From: Anaeromyxobacter soli
GTDB lineage: Bacteria > Myxococcota > Myxococcia > Myxococcales > Anaeromyxobacteraceae
Reading direction: 5' to 3'
Length of the DNA stretch: 64,000 nt
Assembly: GCF_022808855.1 (NCBI RefSeq)
Contig: NZ_JAKZLF010000022.1
Location: 2,478-66,477, forward strand
Made by a program: the position numbers and the translations under genes
The notes under the pieces: model-generated
Databases searched by the model: none
Seen by the model: the letters and a program-made list of their open reading frames with translations, nothing else
Told to the model about the DNA's origin: nothing
Shown: one piece after another, positions 16,029-47,356 of the stretch
Layout: the number at the start of each line of letters is the position of its first letter
How positions within the stretch are numbered: the first letter of the stretch is position 1

Positions 16029-17342
16029 CTACTCCCCCTGGTCCCCCTCGTCCTCGCCCACCGTCCCTGCGCGCTCCTCGCTGTCCTCCCGGAGCGGCGG
16101 GGCGAGCTCCACCGCGGGCCGCCCCTCCTTCCGCCGCGCCGCGTAGTAGCGCGACACGCTCGGCAGGCTGAACCGGTTCATGGTGACGCTGTGGGTCGCG
16201 AGCGCGTTCAGGCGATCGATGTCGATGAACCACTCCGGCAGGAAGACGGGCCCGACGCACAGCCCGTCCTCCACGAGGTCCCGGACGAGCTCGGCGTCGT
16301 CCACGCTCATCTTTCCCGCGAGGAACGCGCGCACGAGCTCCACGTCGCGCTGCTCGAGCGCGGCGCGGAGGAAGTTGAAGGTCCGGCAGTAGCCGCGCTG
16401 GTAGGCGGCGTCCTTGGTGAACGGGGCGCCGCCCTCGAGGATCCCGCCGCGGAACACGCGCTCGCTCATGAGCGCCGCCTTCTCGGGCGGGAAGCGCGCG
16501 AGGAGGTAGCGGTACACCTCGAGGAAGTCGGCCCCGCGCGCGGCCATGTCGATCGCGATGGTCCGCTCGCCGAGCTCGATGTAGCGCTCGTCGGTGATGT
16601 GCCCGGTGAGGAACTCGGCGACGATGCCGCCGCCCTCCTGCGACTCGGTGAACCGGGGGAGCCCCACCCCGAGCACCGTGAGCACCGGCTGGCGGAAGCC
16701 GTTCAGCGAGGTGAGCACGTGCCACAGCCCCTCGTGGTGGGCGAGCGCGTGGACCTGCCGCTCCGAGAACCGCGCGCCCGTCCTGAGCGTGATGCGCGTC
16801 GCGCCGGCCGCCGCGTTCGCGGTGAGCCGGCTGGTCACGACGGCGGACACGTTCCCCCCGAGGAGCGGCGTGCAGAGCTCGACGATGCGCCTCGCGGCCT
16901 CCTCGGCCGAGTAGACCTGCTGCTCGTCGCGCGCCCGCGGCCGCGACGCCCACATGCGGGCGATGGCGAGGTTGTCGACGTTGTGGTCGGGGAAGCGATC
17001 GCGCGGGTCGCCGTAGACGCGCCGCGAGATCTCGTAGAAGCGCCGCGTCCCGCGAGCGGCGAGCATCTGCGCGAGGGCGATGAACTCGTCGCACTTCTTC
17101 CGCAGCAGGTCCTCGACCGGGTTCTTGCCGCGGATCTGCCGGCGGAGGCCGCGGAGCTCCTTCACCTTGTCCGCGGGGACGAAGCCGAGCGCCGGGTACT
17201 CCGGGCGCGGCAGCTCCTTCGCCCCGTGCCGGAAGAACCGCTCGTGGACCTGCGCCGACCAGTTGATGGCGCGGAGGACGCGGATCGGCCGCTGGGCGTG
17301 GACGATCTGATCGCTGAGGCGGCGAAGGTACTCGCGCGACAC
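16029..17342 (-). CDS. QEGLA-type predicted metallopeptidase (DUF1704, TIGR02421-like)
   Basis: A 437-residue protein of the family named from flavohemoglobin-modulating QEGLA proteins and related to the MATCAP tyrosine carboxypeptidases. The metal motif H-E-x-x-x-H is seen as H203-E204-G-L-W-H208, followed by VLTSLNGFRQP and the QEG motif (S-Q235-E236-G-G-G) at 234-239. The usual QEGLA is here QEGGG. A cytoplasmic metal-dependent peptidase is expected from the family; the substrate is unknown. The C-terminal 40 residues are acidic and low in complexity. The GTG start at 17342 has an uncertain ribosome binding site. It is divergent from the type III operon. Confidence 0.75.
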   Translation of the reverse strand: MSREYLRRLSDQIVHAQRPIRVLRAINWSAQVHERFFRHGAKELPRPEYPALGFVPADKVKELRGLRRQIRGKNPVEDLLRKKCDEFIALAQMLAARGTRRFYEISRRVYGDPRDRFPDHNVDNLAIARMWASRPRARDEQQVYSAEEAARRIVELCTPLLGGNVSAVVTSRLTANAAAGATRITLRTGARFSERQVHALAHHEGLWHVLTSLNGFRQPVLTVLGVGLPRFTESQEGGGIVAEFLTGHITDERYIELGERTIAIDMAARGADFLEVYRYLLARFPPEKAALMSERVFRGGILEGGAPFTKDAAYQRGYCRTFNFLRAALEQRDVELVRAFLAGKMSVDDAELVRDLVEDGLCVGPVFLPEWFIDIDRLNALATHSVTMNRFSLPSVSRYYAARRKEGRPAVELAPPLREDSEERAGTVGEDEGDQGE

Positions 17343-17485: not shown

Positions 17486-17908
17486 ATGAACCCGATCCCG
17501 TCCATCCACGTCGCGAACACCACCGAGCGCAAGACCGAGCCGGACCGCTTCGGCGCGGCCCTCCGCACCGCCGCGGCCAGCGCGGCCCGCGGGGTCGCCG
17601 CGTCGGTCGAGCTCGCCGCGCCGTTCGTGCCCGGCGGCACCGTCGTCTCCGGGGCCCTGCGCTCCGCGGCCGGCACGCTCGCGAGCGGTGGCGCCACCGG
17701 CGGGGCGCACGTCGCGGAGACCGCCGGCGCCGAGGGGGACATCGTCGCCGCGACGCGCGCCCTGCAGCAGCAGTCCCAGAGCTTCAACCTCCAGTACCTG
17801 CAGCTGCAGGAGAACATGCAGCGCGAGAGCCGCGAGTTCGCCGCGCTCTCGAACGTCATGAAGGTGAAGCACGACAGCGCGAAGTCGGCGATCAACAACA
17901 TCCACTGA
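17486..17908 (+). CDS. first gene of the type III export operon; candidate filament or early substrate protein
   Basis: A 140-residue protein of no family I can name with confidence. The N-terminal half is Ala/Gly/Val-rich with no signal peptide. The C-terminal 55 residues are polar and helical (RALQQQSQSFNLQYLQLQEN, then LSNVMKVKHDSAKSAINNI). That shape, a small protein with an essential-looking amphipathic C-terminal helix directly before SctI, resembles needle or filament subunits of type III systems. That role is inferred from position and shape, not from similarity. AGGAGG at 17473-17478 supports ATG 17486. It is the first gene after the sigma-54 promoter. Confidence 0.6.
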   Translation: MNPIPSIHVANTTERKTEPDRFGAALRTAAASAARGVAASVELAAPFVPGGTVVSGALRSAAGTLASGGATGGAHVAETAGAEGDIVAATRALQQQSQSFNLQYLQLQENMQRESREFAALSNVMKVKHDSAKSAINNIH

Positions 17909-17915
17909 GGCCGCC

Positions 17916-18260
17916 ATGCCCATCGCGCCCGTGGGCGCTGCCGGCGCGGCCATCCGGCCCGCGCCGGTCAGGCCCGACAAGCCGAGCTTCTCCACGCTGC
18001 TAGAGCCGCGGGCGCCCGCGGCGAGCGCCCCACCCCCGCGACCGAGCCCGGCGCTCGCCGCGCTCGAGGGCGTGGAGCGCGCGCAGCGGCGCCTCGAGGG
18101 CGTCCTCGCCGCGGCGCGGCAGGGCAGGACCTTCAGCGCCCAGGAGCTCCTCGGCCTGCAGGCCGAGGCATACCGCGTGGTCCAGACCGTCGATCTCGCC
18201 TCGAAGCTCGTCGAGCAGGGCGCCCAGTCCGTGAAGCAGGCCCTCAACACCCAGGTCTGA
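17916..18260 (+). CDS. sctI: type III secretion inner-rod-like protein (SctI/YscI/HrpB family)
   Basis: A 114-residue protein. The first 45 residues are Pro/Ala-rich. The C-terminal part matches the inner rod pattern: FSAQELLGLQAEAYRVVQTVDL followed by ASKLVEQGAQSVKQALNTQV. In known systems this protein forms the rod or adaptor beneath the needle and is itself an export substrate. It lies between the putative filament gene and sctJ, which is the standard I-J order. There is no signal peptide, as expected for a type III substrate. Confidence 0.75.
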   Translation: MPIAPVGAAGAAIRPAPVRPDKPSFSTLLEPRAPAASAPPPRPSPALAALEGVERAQRRLEGVLAAARQGRTFSAQELLGLQAEAYRVVQTVDLASKLVEQGAQSVKQALNTQV

Positions 18261-18271
18261 AGGAGATCTCC

Positions 18272-18991
18272 ATGCGACGTGCGCTCCCGCTCCTCGCCCT
18301 CGCCACGCTCCTCGCCGGCTGCGGGGACGACGAGCTCTTGCACGGCCTGGAGGAGGCCCAGGCGAACGAGATCCTCGTCGCACTGGACGAGGGCGGGCTG
18401 TCCGCGACGAAGGCGCGCGAGGAAGGCTCGGAGGGGCGGTGGACCGTCTCCGTGAGCGGGCGCGACGCGGCGCGGGCTCACCGGATCCTCGCCGAGCGGG
18501 AGCTGCCGAGGCCGCGCCCGGCGGGGTTCGGCGAGGTGTTCGGCAAGGGCTCGATGGTCCCGACCGCGACGGAGGAGCACGCGCTGTACCTGCACGCGCT
18601 CTCGGGTGAGCTCTCGCGCAGCGTGGAGAGCATCGACGGCGTCGTCGAGGCGCGGGTCCACCTCGGCCTGCCGCAGCCCGATCCTCTACGCCCCGGCGAG
18701 CGCCCACCGCCGCGGGGTGCGGTCCTCGTCAAGTGCCGGCCTGCGGCCTGCGCCTCGGTGCGAGCCCTGGAGCCCGGGATCCGCGCGCTCGTCGCGGGCG
18801 CGGCCGACGGGCTCGAGCCGTCGGCCATCTCGGTGGTGATCGCGCCCGGCGCCGAGGCACCTGCGCCCCCGGCGCCCCCGGCCCGTCGCTCACCGCTGCT
18901 CCTCGGGCTCGCCGCGCTGGCGGGGCTCGGCGGTGCGGCGCTCGCCGGCGTCGCCGTCTCCGGACGGCTCCGGGGCGGAGGAGCCCCGTGA
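18272..18991 (+). CDS. sctJ: type III secretion inner-membrane ring lipoprotein SctJ
   Basis: A 239-residue lipoprotein with signal LLALATLLAGC (lipobox LAGC, Cys about residue 17). The YscJ/FliF ring-building fold follows: EEAQANEILVALDEGGLSA, then VSVSGRDAARAHRIL and a second domain with GELSRSVESIDGVVEARVHLGLP. A Pro/Ala linker and a C-terminal membrane helix (LLLGLAALAGLGGAALAGVA) end the protein. It builds the inner ring of the export apparatus, homologous to flagellar FliF. The stop overlaps the next gene by GTGA. Confidence 0.88.
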   Translation: MRRALPLLALATLLAGCGDDELLHGLEEAQANEILVALDEGGLSATKAREEGSEGRWTVSVSGRDAARAHRILAERELPRPRPAGFGEVFGKGSMVPTATEEHALYLHALSGELSRSVESIDGVVEARVHLGLPQPDPLRPGERPPPRGAVLVKCRPAACASVRALEPGIRALVAGAADGLEPSAISVVIAPGAEAPAPPAPPARRSPLLLGLAALAGLGGAALAGVAVSGRLRGGGAP

Positions 18992-19314
18992 ACCCGGCGG
19001 ACCGTCTCCTCGCGTCCCTCGCGGCCGCCTTCGCGCCCCAGCGCGCCGCCGCCCTGCTCGCCCGGCTCGGCTCCGCCGACCTCCGGGAGGTGCGCGCCCA
19101 CGCGGAGCGGCTCGCGCCGGGCTCGCGGGCCGAGCGGCTCGCGGCGCTCGCGGCCGCGCTCGCAGCCGCTCACCGCGGCGCGCCCACCCCGCCCGCTCCG
19201 GCGGAGCGTCCGCGCGTCGCCGAGATCCTGCGCGCGGTCCGGCGGGGCCTGCCCGCGCCGACGGCCGCCCCTGCGCTGGCGAGGCTCTGCCGGGAGCGTC
19301 TCGGCTGCCTCTGA
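18988..19314 (+). CDS. unknown protein in type III operon (SctK position)
   Basis: A 108-residue Ala/Leu/Arg-rich helical protein with no recognised family. The segment AAALLARLGSADLREVRAHA faintly resembles FliG-type helical repeats. A second helix pair follows a Pro-rich linker (PTPPAPAERPR). Its place between sctJ and sctQ is where sctK and sctL genes are often found, so a sorting-platform adaptor is a reasonable guess only. The GTG start at 18988 overlaps the sctJ stop. No membrane segment or signal peptide is present. Confidence 0.55.
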   Translation: MNPADRLLASLAAAFAPQRAAALLARLGSADLREVRAHAERLAPGSRAERLAALAAALAAAHRGAPTPPAPAERPRVAEILRAVRRGLPAPTAAPALARLCRERLGCL

Positions 19315-19383
19315 GCGGTCCGCGACTCGACCCGCCCGTTCGGGCCGCGGTCCGCCGCGGCCGGCCGGAGGGCGGAAAACGCC

Positions 19384-20415
19384 GTGATTCCGCGCCAGCT
19401 CGCGCTGGCATGGGCCGTGGACTGTCCGCGGTCCATGCCCTTTCCGTTCGAGCTGCCGTCCGTCTCACGCGGTCACGCCGAGCTGACCGTCGCCGCGCGC
19501 GCCCTCGGCGCGGAGGTCGCCACGGCGGCGGCGCGGACGCTCGGGTCCCTCCTCGGCTTCGATATCGCCGTCGGCGCGCGAGCGGTCCCCGGCCGTGCGC
19601 TCCCGCGCGGCGGCGTCGCGCGCGTGGGCCTCGACCTCCCCGCGCTCCCGGGGACGGCCGCCCTCGAGGTCGAGCCCGCTCTCGTCGTCGCGCTCGTCGA
19701 CCGGCTCGCTGGGGGGATCGGCGAGACGTACGGCGCGACGACGCTCACCGGCGTCGAGGCCGCGGCGCTGGAGCTCTTCGCGCTCGCGGCGCTCGAGGGG
19801 GCCTGCGAGGTCTCGGGGGTCGAGGAGGCGCTGGCGCCGCGCCTGGGCCGCGCCGCGTCGGAGCCCGCCGCGGCGCTGGCCATCGAGCTCACGGTCACCG
19901 CCGGACACGTCTCCGGGCGCGCGCGGCTGCTGCTGCCGCCCGCCGCGCTCCGCGCGCTGCGCGGTGCGCCGGCCTGGGACGGCGCCGCCGCGGGGCTGCG
20001 GATGGTGGCCTCGCTGCGCGGCGGCGAGGCCGCGCTCGGGCGCGAGGAGCTCGCCGCGCTCGCGACCGGGGACGTCGTGGTGCTCGACGGCACGGCGGAG
20101 CCCAGGGCCCTGGTGCTCCCGGGCGGCGCGCGGCTCGCGGGACGTCTCGAGGATGGAGCCTTTCACGTGGAGGAGATCGACATGACGGATCGGATGGCGC
20201 AGCTCCCGGTGGTGCTCGAGGTCGAGCTCGCCCGGGTGGAGGTGACCCTCGCCGAGCTCGCCCGGCTGGAGCCGGGAGCCACCCTGCCGCTCGCGCTCGA
20301 TCGGCGCGGGATCGTGACCCTGCGCGCGGGCGAGCGCGCGCTCGGGCGCGGCGAGCTCGTGGACGTGGACGGCGCGATCGGCGTCCGGATCGTGAGCCTC
20401 GAGGTGGCGCCGTGA
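19384..20415 (+). CDS. sctQ: type III secretion cytoplasmic C-ring protein SctQ
   Basis: A 343-residue protein. The first 260 residues are poorly conserved Ala/Leu-rich sequence. The last 75 residues are a SpoA (FliN/FliM C-terminal) domain: LPVVLEVELARVEVTLAELARL, then LPLALDRRGIVTLRAGERAL and RGELVDVDGAIGVRIVSL. It forms the cytoplasmic sorting platform that docks substrates at the exporter. GTG 19384 with an upstream GGAGG-like stretch is used; ATG 19435 is an alternative. An internal ATG at 20182 has an ideal ribosome binding site. The stop overlaps the next gene by GTGA. Confidence 0.82.
   Translation: MIPRQLALAWAVDCPRSMPFPFELPSVSRGHAELTVAARALGAEVATAAARTLGSLLGFDIAVGARAVPGRALPRGGVARVGLDLPALPGTAALEVEPALVVALVDRLAGGIGETYGATTLTGVEAAALELFALAALEGACEVSGVEEALAPRLGRAASEPAAALAIELTVTAGHVSGRARLLLPPAALRALRGAPAWDGAAAGLRMVASLRGGEAALGREELAALATGDVVVLDGTAEPRALVLPGGARLAGRLEDGAFHVEEIDMTDRMAQLPVVLEVELARVEVTLAELARLEPGATLPLALDRRGIVTLRAGERALGRGELVDVDGAIGVRIVSLEVAP
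20169..20415 (+). other. internal translation start giving a SctQ C-terminal isoform
   Basis: Inside sctQ, GGAGGAG (20169-20175) is placed 6 nt before the in-frame ATG 20182. Translation from there gives 77 residues, exactly the SpoA domain. Internal initiation making a short SpoA product is established for YscQ, SpaO and Spa33, so the same is expected here. Confidence 0.65.
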
Positions 20416-20768
20416 TCGCCGCATTGCGCCTCGCGGCCGGGAGGTCTCGCCGGCTCGCGCTGCCCATCGCCGGGGCGGCGGTGGTCGCCGCGGCGCTCGC
20501 CTTCGCGCCCGGCGGGCTCGGTCCGATCGCGGCCCGCGCCGGCCTCGTGGCCGCCGCGCTCGCGGCCGCGGCCGTCCTCGCGCGCCGCCGCGTGGCCCCT
20601 CCGGCGACGACCGCGCTCGCGCTCGTCTCCCGGGCCTCGCTCGCCCGCGACGCCGGCGTCGCGCTCGTCGAGGTGGACGGTCGGCGACTCGTGGTGGGCT
20701 ACGGACCTTCGGGGGTCCAGCTCCTCGCCGAATCGCGGAGGGCGTCGCCGGAAGGGAGCGCGCCGTGA
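20412..20768 (+). CDS. FliO-like membrane protein of the type III exporter
   Basis: A 118-residue protein. Residues 12-62 contain two hydrophobic stretches or one long one (LALPIAGAAVVAAALAFAPGG and a second Ala/Leu run), then a basic stop-transfer (LARRRVAPP). The soluble tail reads like FliO: SRASLARDAGVALVEVDGRRLVVGYGPSGVQLLAES. FliO is normally a flagellum-specific factor that helps assemble FliP (SctR). Here it sits directly before sctR, overlapping both neighbours by GTGA. The assignment rests on position plus the short tail pattern. Confidence 0.6.
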   Translation: MIAALRLAAGRSRRLALPIAGAAVVAAALAFAPGGLGPIAARAGLVAAALAAAAVLARRRVAPPATTALALVSRASLARDAGVALVEVDGRRLVVGYGPSGVQLLAESRRASPEGSAP

Positions 20769-21439
20769 CGCCGCTCGCCCTCGCCGCCGGCCCCGTGGCG
20801 GACCGGCCCGCCGAGCTGCTCGTCCTGCTCGCCGCGCTCGCCGTCGTCCCCGCCGCGCTCGTCATGCTGACCTCGTTCCTCAAGATCGTCGTCGTCCTCT
20901 CGATCGCCCGCTCCGCCCTCGGCGCGCCGCAGGTCCCTCCGAACACGGCGGTCACCGGCCTCGCCCTCGTGCTGACGGCGCTCGTGATGGCGCCGGTCGG
21001 CGAGCGCGCGGTCGCCGCCATGCGCGAGGCCGCCCCCGCGGAGCGCGGGATCGCGGGCACGCTCGCGCAGGTCGAGCGCGGCGCCGAGCCGCTCCGCGGG
21101 TTTTTGGCGCGGTTCGCGCGGCCCGACGATCGCGCCGCGTTCGTGGACGTCGCCCGCCGGCTGCGCGGGCCGGGCGCCACGCCGCCGGGCGAGCAGGAGT
21201 TCGCGGTCCTCGCCCCGGCCTTCGTGGTGTCGGAGCTGCGCCGGGCGTTCACGATCGGCTTCCTCGTGTTCGTCCCGTTCCTCGTCGTCGACCTCGTCGT
21301 CTCGAACGTGCTCCTGGCGCTCGGGCTCACCCAGCTCTCCCCCACCTCCGTCGCCCTGCCCTTCAAGCTCCTCCTCTTCGTCGCCGTCGACGGCTGGAAG
21401 CTCCTCGCGCGCGCGCTCGCGCTCTCGTACGCCGGGTGA
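20765..21439 (+). CDS. sctR: type III export gate protein SctR (FliP/YscR family)
   Basis: A 224-residue polytopic protein of the export gate core, homologous to FliP. The family signature is clear: LVMLTSFLKIVVVLSIARSALGAPQVPPN near residues 38-66. The C-terminal half has EFAVLAPAFVVSELRRAFTIGFLVFVPFLVVDLVVSNVLLALG, then the P-T-S-V-A-L-PFKLLLFVAVDGW ending. About four membrane helices are visible. The GTG start at 20765 overlaps the FliO-like stop, and its own stop overlaps sctS. Confidence 0.93.
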   Translation: MTPLALAAGPVADRPAELLVLLAALAVVPAALVMLTSFLKIVVVLSIARSALGAPQVPPNTAVTGLALVLTALVMAPVGERAVAAMREAAPAERGIAGTLAQVERGAEPLRGFLARFARPDDRAAFVDVARRLRGPGATPPGEQEFAVLAPAFVVSELRRAFTIGFLVFVPFLVVDLVVSNVLLALGLTQLSPTSVALPFKLLLFVAVDGWKLLARALALSYAG

Positions 21440-21711
21440 TCGCCATGGACCCCGCCCTCCTGCACGTCGGCCGCGAGGCGCTCCTCCTCGTCCTCGCGGT
21501 GTCCGCGCCGCCGCTCCTCGCCGCCCTCGCCGTGGGCCTCGTCACCGGCGTCCTCCAGGCGGCGACGCAGATCCAGGAGCCCACCGTCGGCGTCGTGCCG
21601 CGGCTCGCGGCCGTGTTCCTGGCGCTCGCCGTCGCCGCGCCCTGGATCGGCGCGCGCGTCGTCCAGTTCGCCCGCAGCTGCTTCGACCTCCTGCCCCGGA
21701 TCGCCTCGTGA
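21436..21711 (+). CDS. sctS: type III export gate protein SctS (FliQ/YscS family)
   Basis: A 91-residue, two-helix membrane protein homologous to FliQ. The first helix is LLLVLAVSAPPLLAALAVGL, followed by the conserved VTGVLQAATQIQEPTVGVVPRL loop. A second helix and the D-L-L-P end follow. With SctR and SctT it forms the export gate. GTG 21436 overlaps the sctR stop; an ATG lies three codons later at 21445 and is the alternative start. Confidence 0.92.
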   Translation: MIAMDPALLHVGREALLLVLAVSAPPLLAALAVGLVTGVLQAATQIQEPTVGVVPRLAAVFLALAVAAPWIGARVVQFARSCFDLLPRIAS

Positions 21712-22484
21712 CCCCGCCCTTCCCTCCCGAGCTCGCGGCCCGCGCCCCGGGCGCGCTCCTCGCCGCCCTGCGCCTCCTCCCGGTGGCCCTGGCGTCACCC
21801 TTCCTCGGCGGCCCGCTCGTCCCGCCGGTGGTGCGCGTCGCGCTCGCCGCGGGCCTCGGCGCGGCCGTCTCCGCGGCCGGCGCGGCCCCGGCGGCGACGG
21901 ACGCGCTCTCGCTCGCCGCGGGCGGCGTTCGCGAGCTCGCGCTCGGGGCCGTCCTCGCCTTCCTCGTGAGCGCGCCCGTCGAGGCGGCGCGCGCGGCGGG
22001 CCGGCTCGCGGACACCTTCCGGGGCGCGACGCTGTCCGAGCTGCACGTCGCGCCCATCCGGCAGCGCGAGAGCGCGGCGGGAGACCTCCTCGCGCACTGG
22101 GTGGTGGTCCTCGCCGCGTGGGCGGGCGGCGACCGGCTCGTCGTGCACGGGCTCCTCTCGACCTTCGTGGCGGTGCCGCCGGGGGCGCCCTTCGCGCTCG
22201 CCAGGGCGCTCCCCGCGGTCCTCGCGGCGGCCGCCGAGCTCGTCGCCGCCGCGGTCGCCATCGCGGCGCCCGCCGCCGCGGGCGTCCTCGCCGCGGATCT
22301 CGCCGTCGCGCTCGTCGCGCGCGTCGCGCCCCAGCTCGGCGCCGTCAACGCGGCGCAGCCGGCGCGCGCGGCGCTCGGGCTCCTCGCCCTCGCCGCGAGC
22401 GCGGGCGTCGCGGGCGGTCGGCTCGCCGCGATGGTCGCGCTCTCGGGCAGGACGGTGGAGGCGGTCGCGGGGGTGGCGCCGTGA
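21708..22484 (+). CDS. sctT: type III export gate protein SctT (FliR/YscT family)
   Basis: A 258-residue membrane protein homologous to FliR. Family landmarks are ALRLLPVALASPFLGGPLVPPVVRVALA, then FRGATLSELHVAPIRQRES and the helix-breaking GGDRLVVHGLLSTF. The C-terminal ADLAVALVARVAPQLGAVNAAQPARAALGLL is the most typical block. Six or so membrane helices are visible. It completes the R-S-T gate, whose genes are adjacent in this order. Start and stop both overlap neighbours. Confidence 0.92.
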   Translation: MTPPFPPELAARAPGALLAALRLLPVALASPFLGGPLVPPVVRVALAAGLGAAVSAAGAAPAATDALSLAAGGVRELALGAVLAFLVSAPVEAARAAGRLADTFRGATLSELHVAPIRQRESAAGDLLAHWVVVLAAWAGGDRLVVHGLLSTFVAVPPGAPFALARALPAVLAAAAELVAAAVAIAAPAAAGVLAADLAVALVARVAPQLGAVNAAQPARAALGLLALAASAGVAGGRLAAMVALSGRTVEAVAGVAP

Positions 22485-23512
22485 GCGGCGACCGGACCGA
22501 GGCGCCCACCCCGAGGCGCCTGCGCGAGGCGCGCCGGCGCGGCGAGGTCGCGCAGAGCCGCGAGCTCACCGGCGCCGCGGCGCTCCTCGGCGGGCTCGCC
22601 GCGGTGGCCGCGACCGGCGGCGCCATCGCGCGCGAGCTCGCGACGTTGCTGCGCGTCCAGCTCGCGCAGGCGGCCGACCCCGCCGCCGTCCCGGCCGCGG
22701 CGCTCCACGCCGGGCTCGCCGCCGTGGCGCGCCTCTCGCTCCTTCCGGCCGCCGGCGCCTTCGCGGCGGCCGCCATCGCCGGCGCGCTGCAGGCGGGCTT
22801 CACCTTCGCGCCGGGCGCGCTCGCGCCCCGGGCCGAGCGCGTGAGCCCGATGGCGGGGCTGCGCCGCCTGCTCTCGCCGGTGAGCCTGCTCGCCGTGCCG
22901 CTCGGGCTCGCCAAGGGGGCGGTCCTGCTCGCCGTCGCCCTGGCGTGGCTCCGCGCGGCCGCGCCGGCGCTCGCCGGCCTCTCCCGCCTCGACGCGCGCG
23001 CGCTCTGGGGCGCCGCGCCGCTCCTCCTCGGGCTCGCCGTGCGGCTCGGGGTCGCCTACGCGCTCCTCGGGCTCGCCGATCTCGCGCTCGCGCGCTTCCG
23101 CCACCGGCGCGCGCTCCGCATGACGCGGGACGAGGTCCGCCGCGAGCACAAGGAGGACGAGGGCGACCCCGCGCACCGGTCGGAGCGCCGCCGCCTGCAC
23201 CGCGCGCTCCTCGAGGCCGGCGCGGTCTCGCGGGCGACGGTCGTCGTCGTGAACCCGACCCACGTCGCGGTGGCGCTGCGCCACGACCGCGACGGCGAGG
23301 CCGCGCCCCGGCTCGTCGCGAAGGGCACCGGGCTCGCCGCCGCCCGCATCCGCTCCGCGGCGCGGCGCGCGGGCGTGCCGATCGTGCGCGACGTGCCGCT
23401 CGCGCGCGCGCTCCACCGCCTCGCCGAGGTCGGCGACGAGATCCCGGAGGAGCTCTACGAGGCCGCCGCCGCGGTCCTCGCCCACCTGTACGGCCACACG
23501 GAGACGCCATGA
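22481..23512 (+). CDS. sctU: type III export switch protein SctU (FlhB/YscU family)
   Basis: A 343-residue protein. It starts with the family motif DRTEAPTPRRLREARRRGEVAQSREL. Four membrane helices fill residues 30-215. The cytoplasmic domain holds the autocleavage site N-P-T-H (VVNPTHVAVALRHD, near residue 260), where FlhB/YscU proteins cut between N and P to switch substrate class. The intact NPTH predicts a working specificity switch. The GTG start overlaps the sctT stop, and the stop overlaps the sctV ATG. Confidence 0.94.
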   Translation: MSGDRTEAPTPRRLREARRRGEVAQSRELTGAAALLGGLAAVAATGGAIARELATLLRVQLAQAADPAAVPAAALHAGLAAVARLSLLPAAGAFAAAAIAGALQAGFTFAPGALAPRAERVSPMAGLRRLLSPVSLLAVPLGLAKGAVLLAVALAWLRAAAPALAGLSRLDARALWGAAPLLLGLAVRLGVAYALLGLADLALARFRHRRALRMTRDEVRREHKEDEGDPAHRSERRRLHRALLEAGAVSRATVVVVNPTHVAVALRHDRDGEAAPRLVAKGTGLAAARIRSAARRAGVPIVRDVPLARALHRLAEVGDEIPEELYEAAAAVLAHLYGHTETP

Positions 23513-25533
23513 CCCGCCTGCACTCGATCCTCGCCCGCGTCCGCGGCGCCGGCGACGCCGCCTTCGCCGTCGCGGTCCTCGCCGTCGTGCTCCTCCTCGT
23601 CGCGCCCGTCCCGCCCGCGGCGCTCGACGCGCTCCTCGCCCTGAACCTCGCGGTGGCGGCGACGATCCTCGTCGTGACGCTCTTCGCGCGGGACGCGCTC
23701 AGGTTCGCGAGCTTCCCGACCCTCCTGCTCCTCACGACCCTGTTCCGCCTGGCGCTCAACGTCTCGTCGACGCGCCTCGTCCTCTCGCGCGGGGACGCCG
23801 GGCGCGTCATCGAGGCGTTCGGGCGGGTCGTCGTCCAGGGCAACTACGTCGTGGGCGCCGTCGTCTTCGCCATCCTCACGCTCGTGCAGCTCCTCGTCGT
23901 CGCCAAGGGCGCGGAGCGCGTGGCGGAGGTCGCGGCGCGCTTCACGCTCGACGCGCTCCCCGGCAAGCAGATGGCGATCGACGCGGACGTGCGCGCCGGC
24001 GCGATCGACGCGGGCGAGGCGCGCCGGCGGCGCCGGGCGCTCGAGCGGGAGAGCCAGCTGTACGGCGCGATGGACGGCGCGCTCAAGTTCGTGAAGGGCG
24101 ACGCCATCGCGGGCGTCGCGATCGTCCTCGTGAACGTGACCGGCGGGCTCGTGGCGGGCGCGCTCCGCGGGATGGACGTCGGTGCGGCGGCGCGCCGGTA
24201 CGCCCTCCTCGCCATCGGCGACGGCCTCGTCTCGCAGCTCCCCGCGCTCCTCGTGGCGGTCTCGGCCGGCGTCGCCGTCACGCGGGTGGCCGCCGAGGAC
24301 GAGGGCGGCTCGCTCGGCGGCGAGATCGGGCGGCAGCTCGCGGCCGAGCCGGCGGCGCTCGGGACGGTGTCGGCCCTCCTCGCGGCCCTCGCGCTCGCCC
24401 CCGGCCTCCCGGCGGCGCCTTTCGCGGCGCTCTCCGCCGCCGCGGCGGGCGGTGCGTTCCAGCTCGCCCGCCGGCGCGCGCGGCGCTCCGCCGCCGTTCC
24501 CGCCGAGGCGGCCGCGAGCCCCGCCGATCCCTTCGCCGCGCCCGCGCCGGTCGTCCTCGAGCTCGCCGACGATCTCGTGGCGGCCGCGCGCGCGGAAGAT
24601 GGGCGGGCGATGCGCGAGGCGCTCGCGGCGCTCCGCGACCAGCTCTGGCGCGAGCTCGGGGTGCAGGTCCCCGGCGTGGTCCTGCGTCCCGCGCCGCTCC
24701 CGCGCGCGGGCTGGTCGCTCCTCGTCGACGACGTTCCGGTCGCGTCGGGCTCCGCTCCCGAGGGCGAGCTCCTCGCGCTCGTGGCGCCCGAGGAGCTCGC
24801 GCTCGTCGGCGTCGGGGCGACGGCGGCGACGGACCCCGCGAGCGGCCGCCCCGCGGCGCTCGTCGCCGCCGCGGACGCCGCCCGCGCGTCCGCGCTCGGG
24901 CCGGTGCTCGGCCACCTCGAGCGGATCGTCGCCGAGGCGGGCGGAGCGCTGCGCGGCGCGGCGCATCACCTCGTCGGCGTGCAGGAGGCGCAGGCGCTCC
25001 TCGACGCGCTCGAGCCCACCGCGCCCGCGCTCGTCCGCGAGGCGGGCCGCCAGCTCCCGCCCGCGCTCCTCGCCGAGGTCCTGCGCCGGCTCGTCGAGGA
25101 GGGCGTGTCCATCCGGCCGCTGCGGACGATCCTGGAGGCGATGCTCGAGGCCGGCGGGCCCGCGCGCGGCGCGGCAGCGCTCGCCGAGGCGTGCCGCCGA
25201 TCGCTCCGGCGCCACATCGCGCATCGCTTCGGCCGGGGCGGCCCGCTCGCCGCGCTGCTCGTCGATCCCGCCGCCGAGCGCGCGATCCGCGAGGCCCTCG
25301 CCGGTGAGGCGCTCGCCCTCGACCCCTCCGATGCGCGCGCGCTGCTCGACGCGCTGGACGCGGAGACGCGCGGCGGCGCCGAAGCGCCCGTGATCCTTGC
25401 GAGTGCGGACGTCCGGCGGGCGTTGCGCGGGCTCGTGGCGCCGCGCTTCCCGCAGGTCGCGGTGCTCACCTTCGACGAGCTCCCGCCCGAGCAAGAGGTG
25501 CGTCCGGTGGGGCGGCTCGCCCTCGCCGCCTGA
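23509..25533 (+). CDS. sctV: type III export gate protein SctV (FlhA/YscV family)
   Basis: A 674-residue protein. Residues 15-310 hold about eight membrane helices with the FHIPEP-family motifs LLLTTLFRLALNVSSTRLVL and RFTLDALPGKQMAIDADVRAG. After a Pro/Ala linker near 335-350, the C-terminal 320 residues form the cytosolic domain that makes the nonameric ring and docks chaperone-substrate complexes (GVQEAQALLDALE, VSIRPLRTILEAM). It is the last gene of the operon. No ATPase, stator, SctD or secretin gene lies before it or after it in this window. Confidence 0.94.
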   Translation: MTRLHSILARVRGAGDAAFAVAVLAVVLLLVAPVPPAALDALLALNLAVAATILVVTLFARDALRFASFPTLLLLTTLFRLALNVSSTRLVLSRGDAGRVIEAFGRVVVQGNYVVGAVVFAILTLVQLLVVAKGAERVAEVAARFTLDALPGKQMAIDADVRAGAIDAGEARRRRRALERESQLYGAMDGALKFVKGDAIAGVAIVLVNVTGGLVAGALRGMDVGAAARRYALLAIGDGLVSQLPALLVAVSAGVAVTRVAAEDEGGSLGGEIGRQLAAEPAALGTVSALLAALALAPGLPAAPFAALSAAAAGGAFQLARRRARRSAAVPAEAAASPADPFAAPAPVVLELADDLVAAARAEDGRAMREALAALRDQLWRELGVQVPGVVLRPAPLPRAGWSLLVDDVPVASGSAPEGELLALVAPEELALVGVGATAATDPASGRPAALVAAADAARASALGPVLGHLERIVAEAGGALRGAAHHLVGVQEAQALLDALEPTAPALVREAGRQLPPALLAEVLRRLVEEGVSIRPLRTILEAMLEAGGPARGAAALAEACRRSLRRHIAHRFGRGGPLAALLVDPAAERAIREALAGEALALDPSDARALLDALDAETRGGAEAPVILASADVRRALRGLVAPRFPQVAVLTFDELPPEQEVRPVGRLALAA

Positions 25534-33147: not shown

Positions 33148-36918
<3,771 letters not shown>

Positions 36919-39191: not shown

Positions 39192-39283
39192 TCCAGCGCC
39201 GCCACGCCGCCGGTGCGGTGGGCGAGCAGCCGGGATTTCCCTGTGGCATCCAGGGGTTGACCAGGGTATCCGGCACGAGGGCG

Positions 39284-39299
39284 TGGCATGGCCGTTGCT
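39284..39299 (+). promoter_or_regulatory. sigma-54 promoter match ahead of gspC
   Basis: TGGCAT-GGCCG-TTGCT matches the -24/-12 consensus with one mismatch, and GG (39285-39286) and GC (39297-39298) are 10 bp apart. It overlaps the first possible gspC start (ATG 39288). If the promoter is real, translation must begin at ATG 39321. Confidence 0.5.
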
Positions 39300-40319
39300 C
39301 CCTCCCCGCGCGGCGCTCCCATGCTCGACCTCTTCTTCCGCAAGTACGCCTGGACGGCGAACCTCGCGCTGCTGTTCGTGGCGGCGTGGCTCGCAGCCAA
39401 GACGGTGAACACGCTCGCGGGCGCCGCGATCCGTCCGGAGCCCCGGGCGGACGTCGCGAGCCTCCCCACCGCGCCGCCGCGCCCCACCCTCCCCGCCACG
39501 CTCGACGTCGACAAGCTCTTCAAGCTCATCGGACAGGAGCCGCCGCGCGAGGTGGAGGCCGACGTCGCGCAGGCGCCGCTCGCCCCCCAGAACTGCGACG
39601 ATCCGCACGCCGCGCCGACGAAGAGCGACCTCCGCCTGCAGCTCGTGGTCGGCGTCATCGCCGAGCGGGCGCGCCAGTCCCTCGCGACGATCCTCGACCT
39701 CAACACGCGCGAGGCGAAGGTCGTCGGCGTGGGCGACGAGGTCGGCGGAGCGAGGCTCCTCGGGCTCGAGCGCGTGCGGGACGACGCGGACGCCACCGGG
39801 AACGGGTTCCGCCTCGTCGCCATCGTCTGCAACAAGGGGACGAAGGAGTACCTCGACTTCGAGGGCGGCTCGGCGTTCGCCTCGGGCGGCGAGGCCTCCG
39901 GCAACCTCGGCTTCGCGCCGGTGCCGCCGCCCACGCGCGGCGGGCCCGCGCCGGGTGGCCGCGCGCCCATGGAGGGCGTGCGCGAGGTCGGCCAGAACAA
40001 GTACGAGATCGAGCGCGGCGTCATCGACTCGACGCTCGGCAACCTCAACACCATCGCGACCCAGGCGCGCATCGTGCCGTCCTTCAAGAACGGCGCCGCG
40101 AACGGGTTCAAGCTCTTCTCCATCCAGCCCAACTCGCTCTACGCCTCGATCGGCATCGAGAACGGCGACGTCATCCAGCGGGTGAACGGATACGAGATCA
40201 ACTCCCCCGAGAAGGCGCTCGAGCTCTATCAGAAGCTGCGCGAGTCACAGCGCGTGACGATCGAGCTGGAGCGCGGGGGACAGGTCATCCGCAAGGAGTA
40301 CTCCATCAGCGGCCCGTGA
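39288..40319 (+). CDS. gspC: type II secretion inner-membrane protein GspC
   Basis: A 343-residue bitopic protein that links the inner platform to the secretin. A membrane helix (LALLFVAAWLAAKTVN) is at about residues 23-38. The HR domain follows near 115-180 (LRLQLVVGVIAERARQSLATILD). A C-terminal PDZ domain is clear (FKLFSIQPNSLYASIGIENG, VIQRVNGYEI). ATG 39288 has GAGG upstream; ATG 39321 (MLDLFFRKYAW) is the alternative if the overlapping sigma-54 promoter is used. It is the first gene of gspC-N. Confidence 0.88.
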   Translation: MAVAPSPRGAPMLDLFFRKYAWTANLALLFVAAWLAAKTVNTLAGAAIRPEPRADVASLPTAPPRPTLPATLDVDKLFKLIGQEPPREVEADVAQAPLAPQNCDDPHAAPTKSDLRLQLVVGVIAERARQSLATILDLNTREAKVVGVGDEVGGARLLGLERVRDDADATGNGFRLVAIVCNKGTKEYLDFEGGSAFASGGEASGNLGFAPVPPPTRGGPAPGGRAPMEGVREVGQNKYEIERGVIDSTLGNLNTIATQARIVPSFKNGAANGFKLFSIQPNSLYASIGIENGDVIQRVNGYEINSPEKALELYQKLRESQRVTIELERGGQVIRKEYSISGP

Positions 40320-40339
40320 CGCAGGGTCGAAAGCCTTCC

Positions 40340-43081
40340 ATGCGCAACCGCCTCGCCACGCTGCTCGTCCTCGTCCCGGCCCTCGTCTCCGCGCAGGTGC
40401 CGATCCGTCCTCCCCCCGGCGGCGACACCGCCGGCCCGCGCCCCGCGCCCCCCCGCCCGCCCGCGACGGCCACGCCCGGCGCGCCACGCCCCGTGACGCC
40501 CCCCGTGACGCCCCCCGGGGCGCAGGGCCAGAACGGGCGCCCGGCTCGCCCGGCGGCGCAGCAGCCCCAGCAGCCGCAGACGTTCCGCCCCGCGGAGCGC
40601 TGCGTCCCGATGCAGGGGCGCTTCATGCTGCAGTTCAACAAGGCCGACATCGCCGACGTGCTCGAGCAGGCGAGCCGCTGGACCTGCCGGAACTTCATGT
40701 TCACGGAGGACGTGGCGCGCGGGAAGATCACGCTCCTCTCGAAGACGCCGGTGACCGCGGAGGAGGCGTACGCGGCGTTCATCGCGGCGCTCAACTCGAA
40801 CAACATCAGCGTGTACCCGACGGGCAAGTACTTCAAGCTCGTCCGGACCGCCGACGCGAAGAAGAACCCGATCCCCACCTACGTGGGCGATCAGGCGACG
40901 CCGTACAGCGAGCAGCCGATCACGAAGGTGATCCGCCTGAACTTCGCGGACGCCGATCAGCTCCGCGGGATCATGGGTAACTTCATCTCGCCCCAGGGCG
41001 CGGACATCCAGGCGATCCCGCCCAACATGCTGATCGTCACGGACATCGGCCTCAACATCCGGCGCATCGAGCGGCTCATCGAGGCCATCGACCGCGCCGG
41101 CGCGGGCGAGCTCGTGCGCATCGTGCAGATCCGCTTCGCGTCGGCGAAGGACATCGCCGACAAGGTGAACCAGATCTTCCAGGCGCAGCAGGGCGGCGCG
41201 CGCGGCGCGGGGCGGAGCCGCACCGTGCTCTCCTCGCCGACCTCGCCGGCCCGGCCGGGCGCCATCCCGCCGCGCCCGCCGCAGGCGGCCCCGGACGTGT
41301 CCGGCTCCGTGGAGGTGTCGGTCTCCAAGGTCCTCCCCGACGAGCGGACGAACAAGCTCATCGTGATCGCGGACGAGAAGAGCTTCCAGCGGCTCATGGA
41401 GCTCATCGAGCAGCTCGACGTGCCGACGAGCGCGGAGGGCGGCATCCACGTCGTGTTCCTCAAGAACGCGAACGCGGAGGAGCTCGCGCAGACACTGTCG
41501 AACCTCGCCCAGGGCACGGCGGCCGGGAAGCGCACCGGCACCACCGCGCCCGGCGCTCCCGGCGCGCCCGGCGGGCTCTCGCCGACGCCCGTCCCCACCG
41601 CCATGGGCACGCAGCCCGGGGCGCCGCCGTCCGCGCGCCCGGGCGGCGCCTCGGACGTGACCGCGTCGCTCTTCAGCGGCGACGTGAAGGTCACCGCGGA
41701 CAAGGCGCAGAACGCCCTCCTCGTGCAGGCGAGCGGCGCCGACTTCCAGGCCATCCAGCGGCTCGTGGAGAAGCTCGACCGGCCGCGCCGGCAGGTGTTC
41801 GTCGAGGCCGTGATCATGGAGGTGAACCTCAACGACTCGACCCAGTTCGGCGTGGGGGCGCACGGCGTCGTCCCGGTGGACTACAAGGGCGAGAAGGGCT
41901 TCATCCCGCTGGCGTCGGAGCCGGGGCGCGTCTCCTCCTTCAACCTCAACAACGTCATCTCGCTCGGCGGGTTCCTGACCGGCTTCAACGGCCCCTCCTC
42001 CGGGGTCGTCGAGGATCTCCTCGGCGTGAAGCTCCCGTCGCTCGGGATCCTCGTCCAGGCGCTGCAGTCGAGCTCGGACGTGAACGTGCTGTCGACCCCT
42101 CACATCCTCGCCTCGGACAACGAGGAGTCGGAGATCACGGTCGGACAGAACGTGCCGTTCCAGGCGGGCTTCGCGCCGCAGGGGCTCTCCAACCTGCTGT
42201 CCGGGACCACCGGCGGGACGTCGGCGCTCGGCTCGACGCTCGGCATCGGCGGGCTCTCCTCGCTCTACGCGCCGATCCAGCGGCAGAACGTGGAGCTCCG
42301 GCTCAAGATCAAGCCGCAGATCAACGAGGGCGGCAACGTCCGGCTGGCGATCGAGGAGCAGACCGAGGAGATCGTCGACCGCGACACGCAGCTCGGCCCC
42401 ACGACCGCGAAGCGCAGCGCGAAGACGCTCATCGTGGCGAAGGACCAGAGCACCATCGTCATCGGCGGCCTCATCCAGGAGCGGAACGTCCGCAGCGTCA
42501 AGAAGATCCCGGTCCTCGGCAGCCTGCCGATCTTCGGCTGGCTCTTCCGCGACACGACCACCACGAAGCAGAAGACGAACCTGCTCCTCTTCCTCACGCC
42601 GTACATCATCCGGGACGAGACGGACTACCGGCGCATCTACGAGCGCAAGCGCAAGGAGCAGCAGGACTTCATCGAGCAGTTCTACGGACGGCAGCCGAGC
42701 TACCAGGTCGCGGTCGACTTCACGCGCAAGGCCGGGCCGTACTCGAAGATCCGGGCGGGCGTGTCGGAGGAGTCCCTGAAGCTCGAGAACGGCGGCACGG
42801 GCGCGCCGGGCGAGCGGCTCATCGCGCCGCCGACCGGAGCGCCCCGGCCCGAGCGGGCACCCGCGACGCCCGGGGAGCAGGACGGCGCGCCGACCGAGCC
42901 CGAGTCCGGCGTCGCGCCCGGCGACGGGGAGCCCAGCGCCGGGGAGCGTCTCGAGGTCCAGCCCGAGGCGCCCGCGCCGGGCGAGGCCGCGCCCCCCGCG
43001 CCGCCGTACGGCGGTGGGCCGCCCGCGGGGCAGCCTCAGCAGCCGCAACCGCAGCCGCAGCCGCAGCCGCCGGAGGAATGA
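40340..43081 (+). CDS. gspD: type II secretion secretin GspD
   Basis: A 913-residue outer-membrane channel protein with signal peptide MRNRLATLLVLVPALVSA. A Pro-rich linker is followed by N0 (FMLQFNKADIADVLEQAS), N1-N3 repeats separated by Gly/Pro/Ala-rich loops, and the secretin domain (VEAVIMEVNLNDSTQFGVG ... ITVGQNVPFQAG ... VELRLKIKPQINEGG ... VKKIPVLGSLPIFGWLF). The last 140 residues are a Pro/Gly/Gln-rich tail. ATG 40340 begins the signal peptide; a GTG at 40316 overlapping the gspC stop is an alternative. It is longer than usual because of the loops and tail. Confidence 0.95.
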   Translation: MRNRLATLLVLVPALVSAQVPIRPPPGGDTAGPRPAPPRPPATATPGAPRPVTPPVTPPGAQGQNGRPARPAAQQPQQPQTFRPAERCVPMQGRFMLQFNKADIADVLEQASRWTCRNFMFTEDVARGKITLLSKTPVTAEEAYAAFIAALNSNNISVYPTGKYFKLVRTADAKKNPIPTYVGDQATPYSEQPITKVIRLNFADADQLRGIMGNFISPQGADIQAIPPNMLIVTDIGLNIRRIERLIEAIDRAGAGELVRIVQIRFASAKDIADKVNQIFQAQQGGARGAGRSRTVLSSPTSPARPGAIPPRPPQAAPDVSGSVEVSVSKVLPDERTNKLIVIADEKSFQRLMELIEQLDVPTSAEGGIHVVFLKNANAEELAQTLSNLAQGTAAGKRTGTTAPGAPGAPGGLSPTPVPTAMGTQPGAPPSARPGGASDVTASLFSGDVKVTADKAQNALLVQASGADFQAIQRLVEKLDRPRRQVFVEAVIMEVNLNDSTQFGVGAHGVVPVDYKGEKGFIPLASEPGRVSSFNLNNVISLGGFLTGFNGPSSGVVEDLLGVKLPSLGILVQALQSSSDVNVLSTPHILASDNEESEITVGQNVPFQAGFAPQGLSNLLSGTTGGTSALGSTLGIGGLSSLYAPIQRQNVELRLKIKPQINEGGNVRLAIEEQTEEIVDRDTQLGPTTAKRSAKTLIVAKDQSTIVIGGLIQERNVRSVKKIPVLGSLPIFGWLFRDTTTTKQKTNLLLFLTPYIIRDETDYRRIYERKRKEQQDFIEQFYGRQPSYQVAVDFTRKAGPYSKIRAGVSEESLKLENGGTGAPGERLIAPPTGAPRPERAPATPGEQDGAPTEPESGVAPGDGEPSAGERLEVQPEAPAPGEAAPPAPPYGGGPPAGQPQQPQPQPQPQPPEE
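43040..43069 (+). repeat. hexanucleotide repeat (CAGCCG) in the gspD tail
   Basis: Five CAGCCG units in tandem, one with a CAACCG variant, encode the Gln-Pro repeats at the end of GspD. Repeat number changes would stay in frame and only alter tail length. Confidence 0.7.
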
Positions 43082-43115
43082 TCGGACGCGCCGCGCCCGT
43101 TGCACGAGATCTGCC

Positions 43116-44915
<1,800 letters not shown>

Positions 44916-44918
44916 GCC

Positions 44919-46148
44919 ATGCCGGTCTTCCAGTACAAGGCGCTCAACGCCGCCGGCAAGGCGGTGCAGGGGCTCAAGGAGGCGGACTCGCCGAAGACGC
45001 TCCGCGCGAACCTCCGCCGCGAGGGCGTGTTCCTCACCGAGGTGCTCGGCGAGGCGCAGGCGAAGGAGCAGGCGAAGCGCGAGGTGAACGTCCGCCGCTG
45101 GGTGCTCGGGCGCGTCGGCGCGCGCGACCTCGCCGTCGCGACCCGCCAGCTCGCCGTGCTCGCGCACGCCGGCATCCCGCTCGTCGAGGCCCTCACCGCC
45201 CTCGTCGACCAGGTCGAGCACGAGCGGCTGAAGCGGGTGCTCGGCGACGTGAAGCAGCGGGTCAACGAGGGCAGCTCCCTCGCCGACGCGCTGGCCGTCC
45301 ACCCGCGCGTCTTCTCCACGCTCTACGTGAACATGATCCGCGCCGGGGAGAGCTCGGGCGCGCTCGAGATCGTCCTCGTGCGGCTCGCCGAGTTCACCGA
45401 GAGCCAGGCGCGGCTCCGCTCCAAGATCGCGGGCACGATGGCCTACCCGATCGCGATGATGGTCATCGGGACCGGGATCATGGGCATCCTCTTCACCGTC
45501 GTGATCCCCAAGATCACCTCGATCTTCGAGAACACCAGCGCGACCCTCCCCTGGTACACCCAGGTGACCATCGGCATCTCGTCGTTCGCGTCGCGCTGGT
45601 GGTGGGCGATCCTGCTCGCCGGCGTGGCGGCGGTCTACGGCCTGGCGCGCTGGCGGCGGACGCCGGCCGGGCGCGCCGCCTGGGATCGCGCCGCGCTCCG
45701 GGCGCCCATCTTCGGCCCCATCATCCGGCAGATCGCCATCGGCCGGTTCGCGCGGACGCTCTCGACGCTGCTCAAGAGCGGCGTCCCGCTCCTCACCGCC
45801 ATGGACATCGTGAAGAACATCCTCGGGAACACGCGCCTCGCGGAGGTCATCGAGCAGGCCCGCGACGCCATCCGCGAGGGTGAGTCCATCGCCGCGCCCC
45901 TCAAGCGCTCCGGCGAGTTCCCGCCGCTCGTGCACCACATGGTCGCGATCGGCGAGCGCTCCGGCGCGCTGGAGGAGATGCTCGCGAACGTCGCCGACGC
46001 CTACGAAGACCAGGTCGAGACGACCATCGCCGCGCTCACGTCGCTGCTCGAGCCGGTGATGATCGTCGCGATGGGCGGCGTCGTCGCCTTCATCGTCTTC
46101 TCCGTCCTCATGCCGATCCTCCAGATCAACAACCTCGTAGGAGGCTGA
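44919..46148 (+). CDS. gspF: type II secretion inner-membrane platform protein GspF
   Basis: A 409-residue protein of the assembly platform. Two repeated cytoplasmic T2SSF domains are seen, the first at LAVATRQLAVLAHAGIPLVEALTAL and the second at FARTLSTLLKSGVPLLTAMDIV. Each is followed by a G-E-x-S-G or G-E-R-S-G motif (RAGESSGALEIVL, IGERSGALEEML). Three membrane helices (near 170, 225 and 375) are present. It begins 3 nt after gspE and ends just before gspG. Confidence 0.96.
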   Translation: MPVFQYKALNAAGKAVQGLKEADSPKTLRANLRREGVFLTEVLGEAQAKEQAKREVNVRRWVLGRVGARDLAVATRQLAVLAHAGIPLVEALTALVDQVEHERLKRVLGDVKQRVNEGSSLADALAVHPRVFSTLYVNMIRAGESSGALEIVLVRLAEFTESQARLRSKIAGTMAYPIAMMVIGTGIMGILFTVVIPKITSIFENTSATLPWYTQVTIGISSFASRWWWAILLAGVAAVYGLARWRRTPAGRAAWDRAALRAPIFGPIIRQIAIGRFARTLSTLLKSGVPLLTAMDIVKNILGNTRLAEVIEQARDAIREGESIAAPLKRSGEFPPLVHHMVAIGERSGALEEMLANVADAYEDQVETTIAALTSLLEPVMIVAMGGVVAFIVFSVLMPILQINNLVGG

Positions 46149-46150
46149 CC

Positions 46151-46564
46151 GTGAAGTCCGCGAAGCTCGCCCGCGCCGCCGCGCGTGGCATGACCCTCAT
46201 CGAGATCATGGTGGTCCTCGTGATCATCGGCCTCATCGCCTCCGCCGTCGCCGTGAACGTCATCGGCCGGCAGAAGGAGGCCGAGATCAAGAAGGCCACG
46301 ACCGACGTGCAGAACATCGCCAACCAGGGGGTCGACGCGTTCCGCGTGATGCGCGGCCGCTACCCCTCCACGGAGGAGGGCCTGCGCATCCTCATCCAGG
46401 AGGGGTTCCTCAAGGCGAACCAGCCGGACGGCTCCATCAAGGATCCGTGGAAGCACGACTACGTCTACCTCTACCCCGGCCAGAAGAACCCGGACGGCTT
46501 CGACGTGAAGTCGAACGGGCCGGACGGCCAGCCCGGCACCGAGGACGACATCGTCAACTACTGA
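46151..46564 (+). CDS. gspG: major pseudopilin GspG
   Basis: A 137-residue major pseudopilin. The prepilin leader ends in ARAAARG and is cut before MTLIEIMVVLVIIGLIAS; Glu5 is present, and residue 1 is Met rather than Phe. The globular part carries YPSTEEGLRILI, DPWKHDYVYLYPG and the calcium-site end GPDGQPGTEDDIVNY, all typical of GspG. GTG 46151 has AGGAGG at 46138-46143, overlapping the gspF end. Confidence 0.96.
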   Translation: MKSAKLARAAARGMTLIEIMVVLVIIGLIASAVAVNVIGRQKEAEIKKATTDVQNIANQGVDAFRVMRGRYPSTEEGLRILIQEGFLKANQPDGSIKDPWKHDYVYLYPGQKNPDGFDVKSNGPDGQPGTEDDIVNY

Positions 46565-46732
46565 GGACGTCTCCCCGACCTCGTGAGCACCTCACGCGCG
46601 AAGCGCGCCCTCCGGGGCGCCGATGCGATGGCGGCGAAGCCGGTCCTCTGGCCGGTGGGCGCACGCGACGCGCCCCCCGGACCGCCGGCTCGCTCCGGCG
46701 CAGCCTCGTCCGGCTGCGCCTGCGCTCGCGGC

Positions 46733-47356
46733 ATGGCGGCGTGCGCGCGAGCGCAGCGGGGGTTCACGCTCGTCGAGCTGCTCATCGTCCTCGGGGTGAT
46801 CGCGCTCGCGACCACCTTCGTGGTGCCCGCCCTCCAGTCCGTCTCCGGCGCGAACGCGCGGAAGGCCGCGGGCGAGCTCGCCGGGTCGATGCGCGCGCTC
46901 TTCGACATGGCTGCGCTGCGGCACGCGCGGTGCGCCCTGACGCTCGACCTCGACGGCGCGGCGTGGTGGGCGGACTGCGGCACGGGGCGGGCCGGGAGCG
47001 CGCGCGCGGCGGCCGCCGGAGAGGGCGAGGGGGCCGAGTCGCTCGAGGAGCGCTTCCCGGACGAGCGCGACGAGGAGATGCGGCGCCTCCTCGCGCGGAC
47101 CGAGCTCGGCGGGCTCCCGGACCGGGTCGTGAAGAAGCACGCGCTGCCCGGGAGCGCGCGGTTCGGCCCGGTGAGGGTCGAGGGGCGGCGCGGCGCGATC
47201 GAGGAGGGGAAGGCCTACGTCAAGTTCTTCGCGGGCGGGCAGGCGCAGCGCGCCTACGTGCCGATCGTCGACGGCTCGAACCGCTACACGATCGTGCTCG
47301 AGCCGTTCACCGGCCGCGCGCGGGTCGTGCCCGGCGACGTGGAGGTGAAGGAGTGA
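46733..47356 (+). CDS. gspH: minor pseudopilin GspH
   Basis: A 207-residue minor pseudopilin. The leader is MAACARAQRG, cut before FTLVELLIVLGVIALATTFVVP. The rest is a variable globular domain ending in IVDGSNRYTIVLEPFTGRARV, typical of the GspH type. The frame is open upstream to GTG 46583, but ATG 46733 gives a normal short leader. The 170 bp between gspG and this ATG has several short inverted repeats and no separate gene. Confidence 0.85.
   Translation: MAACARAQRGFTLVELLIVLGVIALATTFVVPALQSVSGANARKAAGELAGSMRALFDMAALRHARCALTLDLDGAAWWADCGTGRAGSARAAAAGEGEGAESLEERFPDERDEEMRRLLARTELGGLPDRVVKKHALPGSARFGPVRVEGRRGAIEEGKAYVKFFAGGQAQRAYVPIVDGSNRYTIVLEPFTGRARVVPGDVEVKE

Follow-up and report, generated by a model that had tools for sequence, protein, structure and literature searches.

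Secretin-less non-flagellar type III secretion systems (NF-T3SS) of two kinds, a short and a long one, are known from myxobacteria, and the short one was found in all sequenced Cystobacterineae (Abby & Rocha 2012; PMC3459982). The needle subunit SctF was stated to be absent from these systems, this absence was explained as a loss, and the group has been used as a model for the evolution of the injection needle from the flagellum (PMC3459982). The myxobacterial systems are called needleless in published work (PMC3459982, PMC10433427, PMC12075869). In Myxococcus, a role in prey lysis, beside the Tad-type Kil pilus, has been measured for the long system, T3SS* (PMC12075869). The second M. xanthus system has no part in prey killing according to a paper cited in PMC12248157, and in the same 2025 preprint both M. 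xanthus NF-T3SS were reported with FliO.

When the window, a stretch of 64,000 nucleotides from Anaeromyxobacter soli (contig C15, positions 2478-66477; G+C 73.5 %), was annotated, a tight export operon was observed on the plus strand at 17486-25533. It encodes, in this order, a 140-aa protein, SctI, SctJ, a 108-aa protein, SctQ, FliO, SctR, SctS, SctT, SctU and SctV. All reading frames are open and most gene joins are start/stop overlaps. The genes are arranged in the same way in relatives that range from congeners to members of other families of the order. A sequence-only reading of this DNA had named eight Sct proteins in one operon and an intact NPTH switch in SctU, and both were borne out. 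The inner membrane ring lipoprotein SctJ (18272-18991) matches TIGR02544 (1.7e-41) and PF01514 (1.9e-22), and the cytoplasmic ring protein SctQ (19384-20415) matches TIGR02551 (1e-24) and PF01052 (8.5e-17). SctR (20765-21439; PRK12797 5.6e-73, PF00813 5.3e-63), SctS (21436-21711; TIGR01402 for FliQ/SctS 1.6e-23, TIGR01403 8.3e-21), SctT (21708-22484; PF01311 1.6e-27), the export switch protein SctU (22481-23512; TIGR01404 5e-82, NPTH at 23252-23263) and the export gate protein SctV (23509-25533; TIGR01399 3.5e-188) follow. In the case of the inner rod protein SctI (17916-18260), the family match is weak (PF17001 0.009, under the gathering score), yet the sequence, above all the C-terminus, is conserved in relatives and the position is as expected.

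Three genes of the operon had been left out of the earlier reading, namely those at 17486-17908, 18988-19314 and 20412-20768, although the coordinates given there already included the first. The last encodes a FliO-family protein, an export-gate assembly factor (PF04347 1e-7, above the gathering score; TIGR03500 1.6e-9), which is conserved in relatives. The gene at 18988-19314 encodes a predicted all-helical protein of 108 aa (AF2 pLDDT 85) with orthologues at the same place. It occupies the position that SctK has in injectisome operons. No family match and no fold match was found for it, the best and non-significant fold match being a needle-chaperone complex (E = 2.8), and the ideas that it is FliG-like or SctK gained no support from a family match. 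The start of SctQ may be the ATG at 19435, and a 15-pair stem-loop lies at the SctQ start, before this ATG (19407-19439); one such stem-loop was found against 0.6 expected, so it may be due to chance. Just upstream of the operon, on the opposite strand, a MATCAP (tyrosine carboxypeptidase) family protein is encoded at 16032-17342 (PF08014 5e-112).

In a tree of SctV alone, the locus grouped with 13 other sequences of the Myxo short kind (100/100) on the non-flagellar side (100/100), and the order of the non-flagellar groups was left unresolved. Thus, SctR, SctS, SctT, SctU and SctV were concatenated. In the resulting tree of 33 loci and 1526 columns, in which injectisomes are few, two rows form long branches and the rows vary in composition, the locus fell inside the Myxo short clade (100/100), and the Myxo short and Myxo long systems together (99/93) were the sister group of the five injectisome loci sampled, which formed one group (100/100). 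The tree supports assignment of the locus to the myxobacterial, secretin-less, early-branching non-flagellar T3SS of the Myxo short kind. An early-branching myxobacterial exporter had also been suggested in the sequence-only reading, and its place outside both the flagellar and the injectisome clades agrees with this. As a novelty the suggestion does not stand, because the same family, with its placement and its missing secretin, has already been described (Abby & Rocha 2012; PMC3459982).

It could be argued that the operon is instead a flagellar export gate or the remnant of a flagellum, as it contains FliO, SctS scores slightly better as FliQ and some close relatives have flagella. We consider this highly improbable. 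The trees already contradict it, flagellar and non-flagellar loci being split at 100/100 in the concatenated tree; the higher scores of SctU and SctV are those with injectisome-type models; and the flagellated congeners carry an additional FlhA of about 45 % identity which falls in a separate clade. SctV is the only FHIPEP protein in the genome, therefore the genome contains no flagellar export gate, and a flagellum is unlikely in the source organism because a second FHIPEP protein is absent.

The locus shares with the described short systems the export gate, SctJ, SctI, the lack of a secretin and of SctD, the early branch and a non-flagellar SctN in the genome. Added here are a remote ATPase-stator-stalk mini-operon, FliO, the conserved gene for a helical protein and a first gene that is a candidate for a needle-type subunit. 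FliO in Myxococcota non-flagellar T3SS is not a new observation (PMC12248157), and we saw no difference between the present operon and those reported. The long T3SS* (M. xanthus MXAN_2434-2464; PMC12075869, PMC10433427) belongs to the sister clade, and there too a relative of the first gene stands at the start; it differs in being a single large gene cluster, which has SctN and SctL of its own as well as several TPR chaperones, and it is absent from the present genome. Injectisomes have homologous SctI, SctJ, SctQ, SctR, SctS, SctT, SctU, SctV, SctL and SctN. They differ in having their own SctC and SctD, neither of which was found here, and the gate of the present locus lies in a separate sister clade. 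In other respects the locus is a typical representative of a family that is known but still poorly understood.

The genome is a 5.3 Mb draft in 80 contigs, rated 100 % complete, and genome-wide absences rest on that draft. No SctD was found above the model cut-off in the genome-wide search. Three secretins were found: one of the GspD type (type II secretion), one of the PilQ type (type IV pili) on contig C17, and one of the CpaC type on contig C4, within a Tad-pilus locus with RcpC/CpaB, T2SSE and T2SSF genes. SctC is most likely absent from the genome, because all three belong to other machines. The GspD gene lies in the window itself (39218-43078; TIGR02517, 526 bits), and it was rejected as a candidate SctC as GspE, GspF and GspG are encoded behind it; the type II secretion operon, which also encodes a GspH-like protein, spans 39218-47353. 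The earlier statement that the window lacks a secretin is therefore not literally correct, and what holds of it is the absence of SctC and SctD, which is supported for the whole genome as well. No translocon or effector gene was identified next to the export operon.

Among seven PF00006 matches in the genome, one is a T3SS ATPase, which scores best as SctN (TIGR02546 9.6e-173). A further match, in the window at 35547-36857, was considered as SctN and rejected as the protein is Rho. The SctN gene is located on contig C50 between SctL (PRK06937 1.2e-24, TIGR02499 5.6e-20) and a FliJ/SctO-like stalk protein (2e-5), and its ATPase motifs are intact. This mini-operon lies behind rpoC and a sigma-factor gene, a place that is conserved across the family. 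The lack of an ATPase and stator, named in the heading of the sequence-only reading, has to be given up as a property of the system; the option offered there that missing parts lie elsewhere was borne out by SctN, SctL and the stalk protein. In five closed genomes of relatives the mini-operon is 1.0-2.4 Mb away from the export operon, therefore the split did not arise from the assembly. A non-flagellar SctN was also found in nearly all genomes with a short SctV, and this co-occurrence suggests that the two modules may work together.

The split over the genome, together with the lack of identified SctD, SctC, translocon and effector genes, would also suit a decaying relic, that is, leftover flagellar or injectisome genes without a working exporter. 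Early M. xanthus annotations, as quoted in PMC3459982, named such loci relics. We regard decay as quite unlikely for the present locus, since the frames are open, NPTH and the ATPase motifs are intact, gene order and sequence are conserved across genera and families, and the long sister system has its measured role in prey lysis (PMC12075869).

When SctN was counted with a threshold that still detects flagellar FliI (1e-60), ten relatives were found to combine two non-flagellar SctV, one short and one long, with a single non-flagellar SctN. This SctN lies 13-19 kb from the long SctV in the seven relatives where both share a contig. A single SctN beside two SctV suggests that the ATPase may be shared between the short and the long system in these genomes. 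With the separate SctL-SctN-stalk locus and the ten two-gate genomes, ATPase sharing between type III systems becomes testable.

The first gene of the operon (17486-17908) was characterized further. Its place at the head of the operon is conserved in relatives of the order. The product has a low-complexity N-terminus of 80 residues and a strongly conserved C-terminus of 57 residues, and its AF2 model contains one confident C-terminal helix, the rest being mostly of low confidence with a low pTM. No significant curated family match was obtained, the cut-off of the SctF model TIGR02105 was not reached, and neither the predicted fold nor the full-length profile gave a useful match in the PDB. Nor did any protein from 195 Myxococcota genomes, the present one included, reach the cut-off of this SctF model. 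When the fetched loci, with 13,276 ORFs, were searched with a profile of the C-terminus, its own orthologues were followed by several Myxococcota proteins whose C-termini weakly match TIGR02105, and then by a protein annotated as SctF in Nitratidesulfovibrio vulgaris (E = 0.034; 1.5e-4 after one iteration). After the same iteration the needle of Escherichia marmotae was reached at 0.011, and a reversed-sequence control reached only 1.1. Annotated needles were thus among the top matches outside the Myxococcota.

The widest profile (A5) was also compared with all PDB sequences and gave ten matches, nearly all of them needle chains. The best was 7y6c_F (2.6e-6); this chain has 43 residues and was deposited as a needle co-chaperone, and we read it as a needle C-terminus. 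Eight chains of MxiH and PrgI, among them a PrgI fusion, came next (0.08-0.82), and the tenth match was an unrelated protein (1.7). As some rows of A5 had been chosen by TIGR02105, a circularity control was made without those rows and the other paralogues (A6); 7y6c_F was still first and the signal was down to E = 0.008. A profile limited to the operon-head gene and its relatives from long loci (A7) gave no needle match in the PDB. The needle signal is reached via intermediates and not from the operon-head family alone, therefore the homology of the first gene to SctF is supported but transitive. In addition, the order of candidate needle, rod and SctJ is the same as the needle-rod-SctJ order of the E. 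marmotae operon. From these sequence comparisons we consider the first gene a candidate for a divergent, needle-type SctF subunit.

The system may be as described and the first gene nevertheless encode another exported helical protein, such as a rod, tip or regulator, with a C-terminal helix that has only a resemblance to needles, in which case the needleless label would stand. The N-terminus, unlike that of known needles, would fit this, as would the fold without a match, the PDB search with the first gene alone and the silence of the SctF model across the Myxococcota. We think it rather unlikely, as annotated needles stood among the top non-Myxococcota matches of some 13,000 ORFs, above the reversed-sequence control, the widened profile found almost only needle chains and the gene order agrees with that of E. 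marmotae.

With the needle profile, a further protein was found in the genome. It is encoded on contig C78 and has 309 aa, a low-complexity N-terminus and the same type of C-terminus (E = 6e-4). Next to it a TPR protein is encoded whose best NCBIfam match is the LcrH/SycD type III chaperone (1.2e-9, below the cut-off); the two genes, the 309-aa protein first, occupy L228:9401-10757. The pair is conserved in the family, and the TPR gene was adjacent in five of the six sampled loci. What appears to be new is the needle-type C-terminus, which the first gene of the operon and this second, chaperone-paired protein look to have in common.

Taken together, the locus is probably a known Myxo-type exporter that consists of the gate operon, a split SctL-SctN-stalk module and a needle-like third locus. 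The gate (SctR, SctS, SctT, SctU and SctV with FliO), the inner ring SctJ, the rod SctI and the C-ring SctQ are encoded in one operon. Judged from the protein families, FliO would aid assembly of the SctR or SctR-S-T core, the SctL-SctN-stalk module would dock on SctV/SctQ and drive export across the inner membrane by means of ATP and the proton-motive force, and self-cleavage of SctU at NPTH would switch the substrates. More tentatively, SctI and the SctF-like proteins might be the first substrates and form a helical rod or filament, short and with its base in the inner membrane, and the LcrH-like chaperone might serve the second needle-like protein. The outer membrane might be passed through the pore of another machine; the pairing of Kil and T3SS* in M. 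xanthus (PMC12075869) makes the Tad secretin a candidate by analogy.

Two points are worth following, namely the candidate subunits of the needle type and the ATPase, which is single and detached. If the first gene is a disguised SctF, the step of needle absence in the evolutionary scheme and the needleless label would need revision, and there would be a competitor to the predation models in which pilus tips replace the needle. A wider proposal has, in our judgement, an even chance of being right: that the short and long needleless systems both encode divergent families of needle-type subunits (a long low-complexity N-terminus and an SctF C-terminus, some with LcrH-type chaperones), that they build a secretin-free filament, and that one ATPase serves two gates where both systems occur.

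Further needle-like genes occur in the long systems, and some of these are arranged in tandem near SctV. In two long-system loci (L234:5897-7044 and L235:11595-13190), small needle-like proteins with one common C-terminus are encoded in tandem near the long SctV. In the long locus of one of the ten two-gate relatives, a gene for a sigma-28-like factor, possibly a dedicated regulator, lies between the relative of the first gene and SctI (L172:3158-3994). Directly behind SctU of the same locus, a second, short protein of 94 aa resembles the SctU C-terminus (L172:16599-16883) and reads SDDAEIAIAL in place of the NPTH region. In the T3SS plasmid locus of Pandoraea faecigallinarum, an unnamed protein (L207:20102-20830) matches the needle profile at 4.9e-5.
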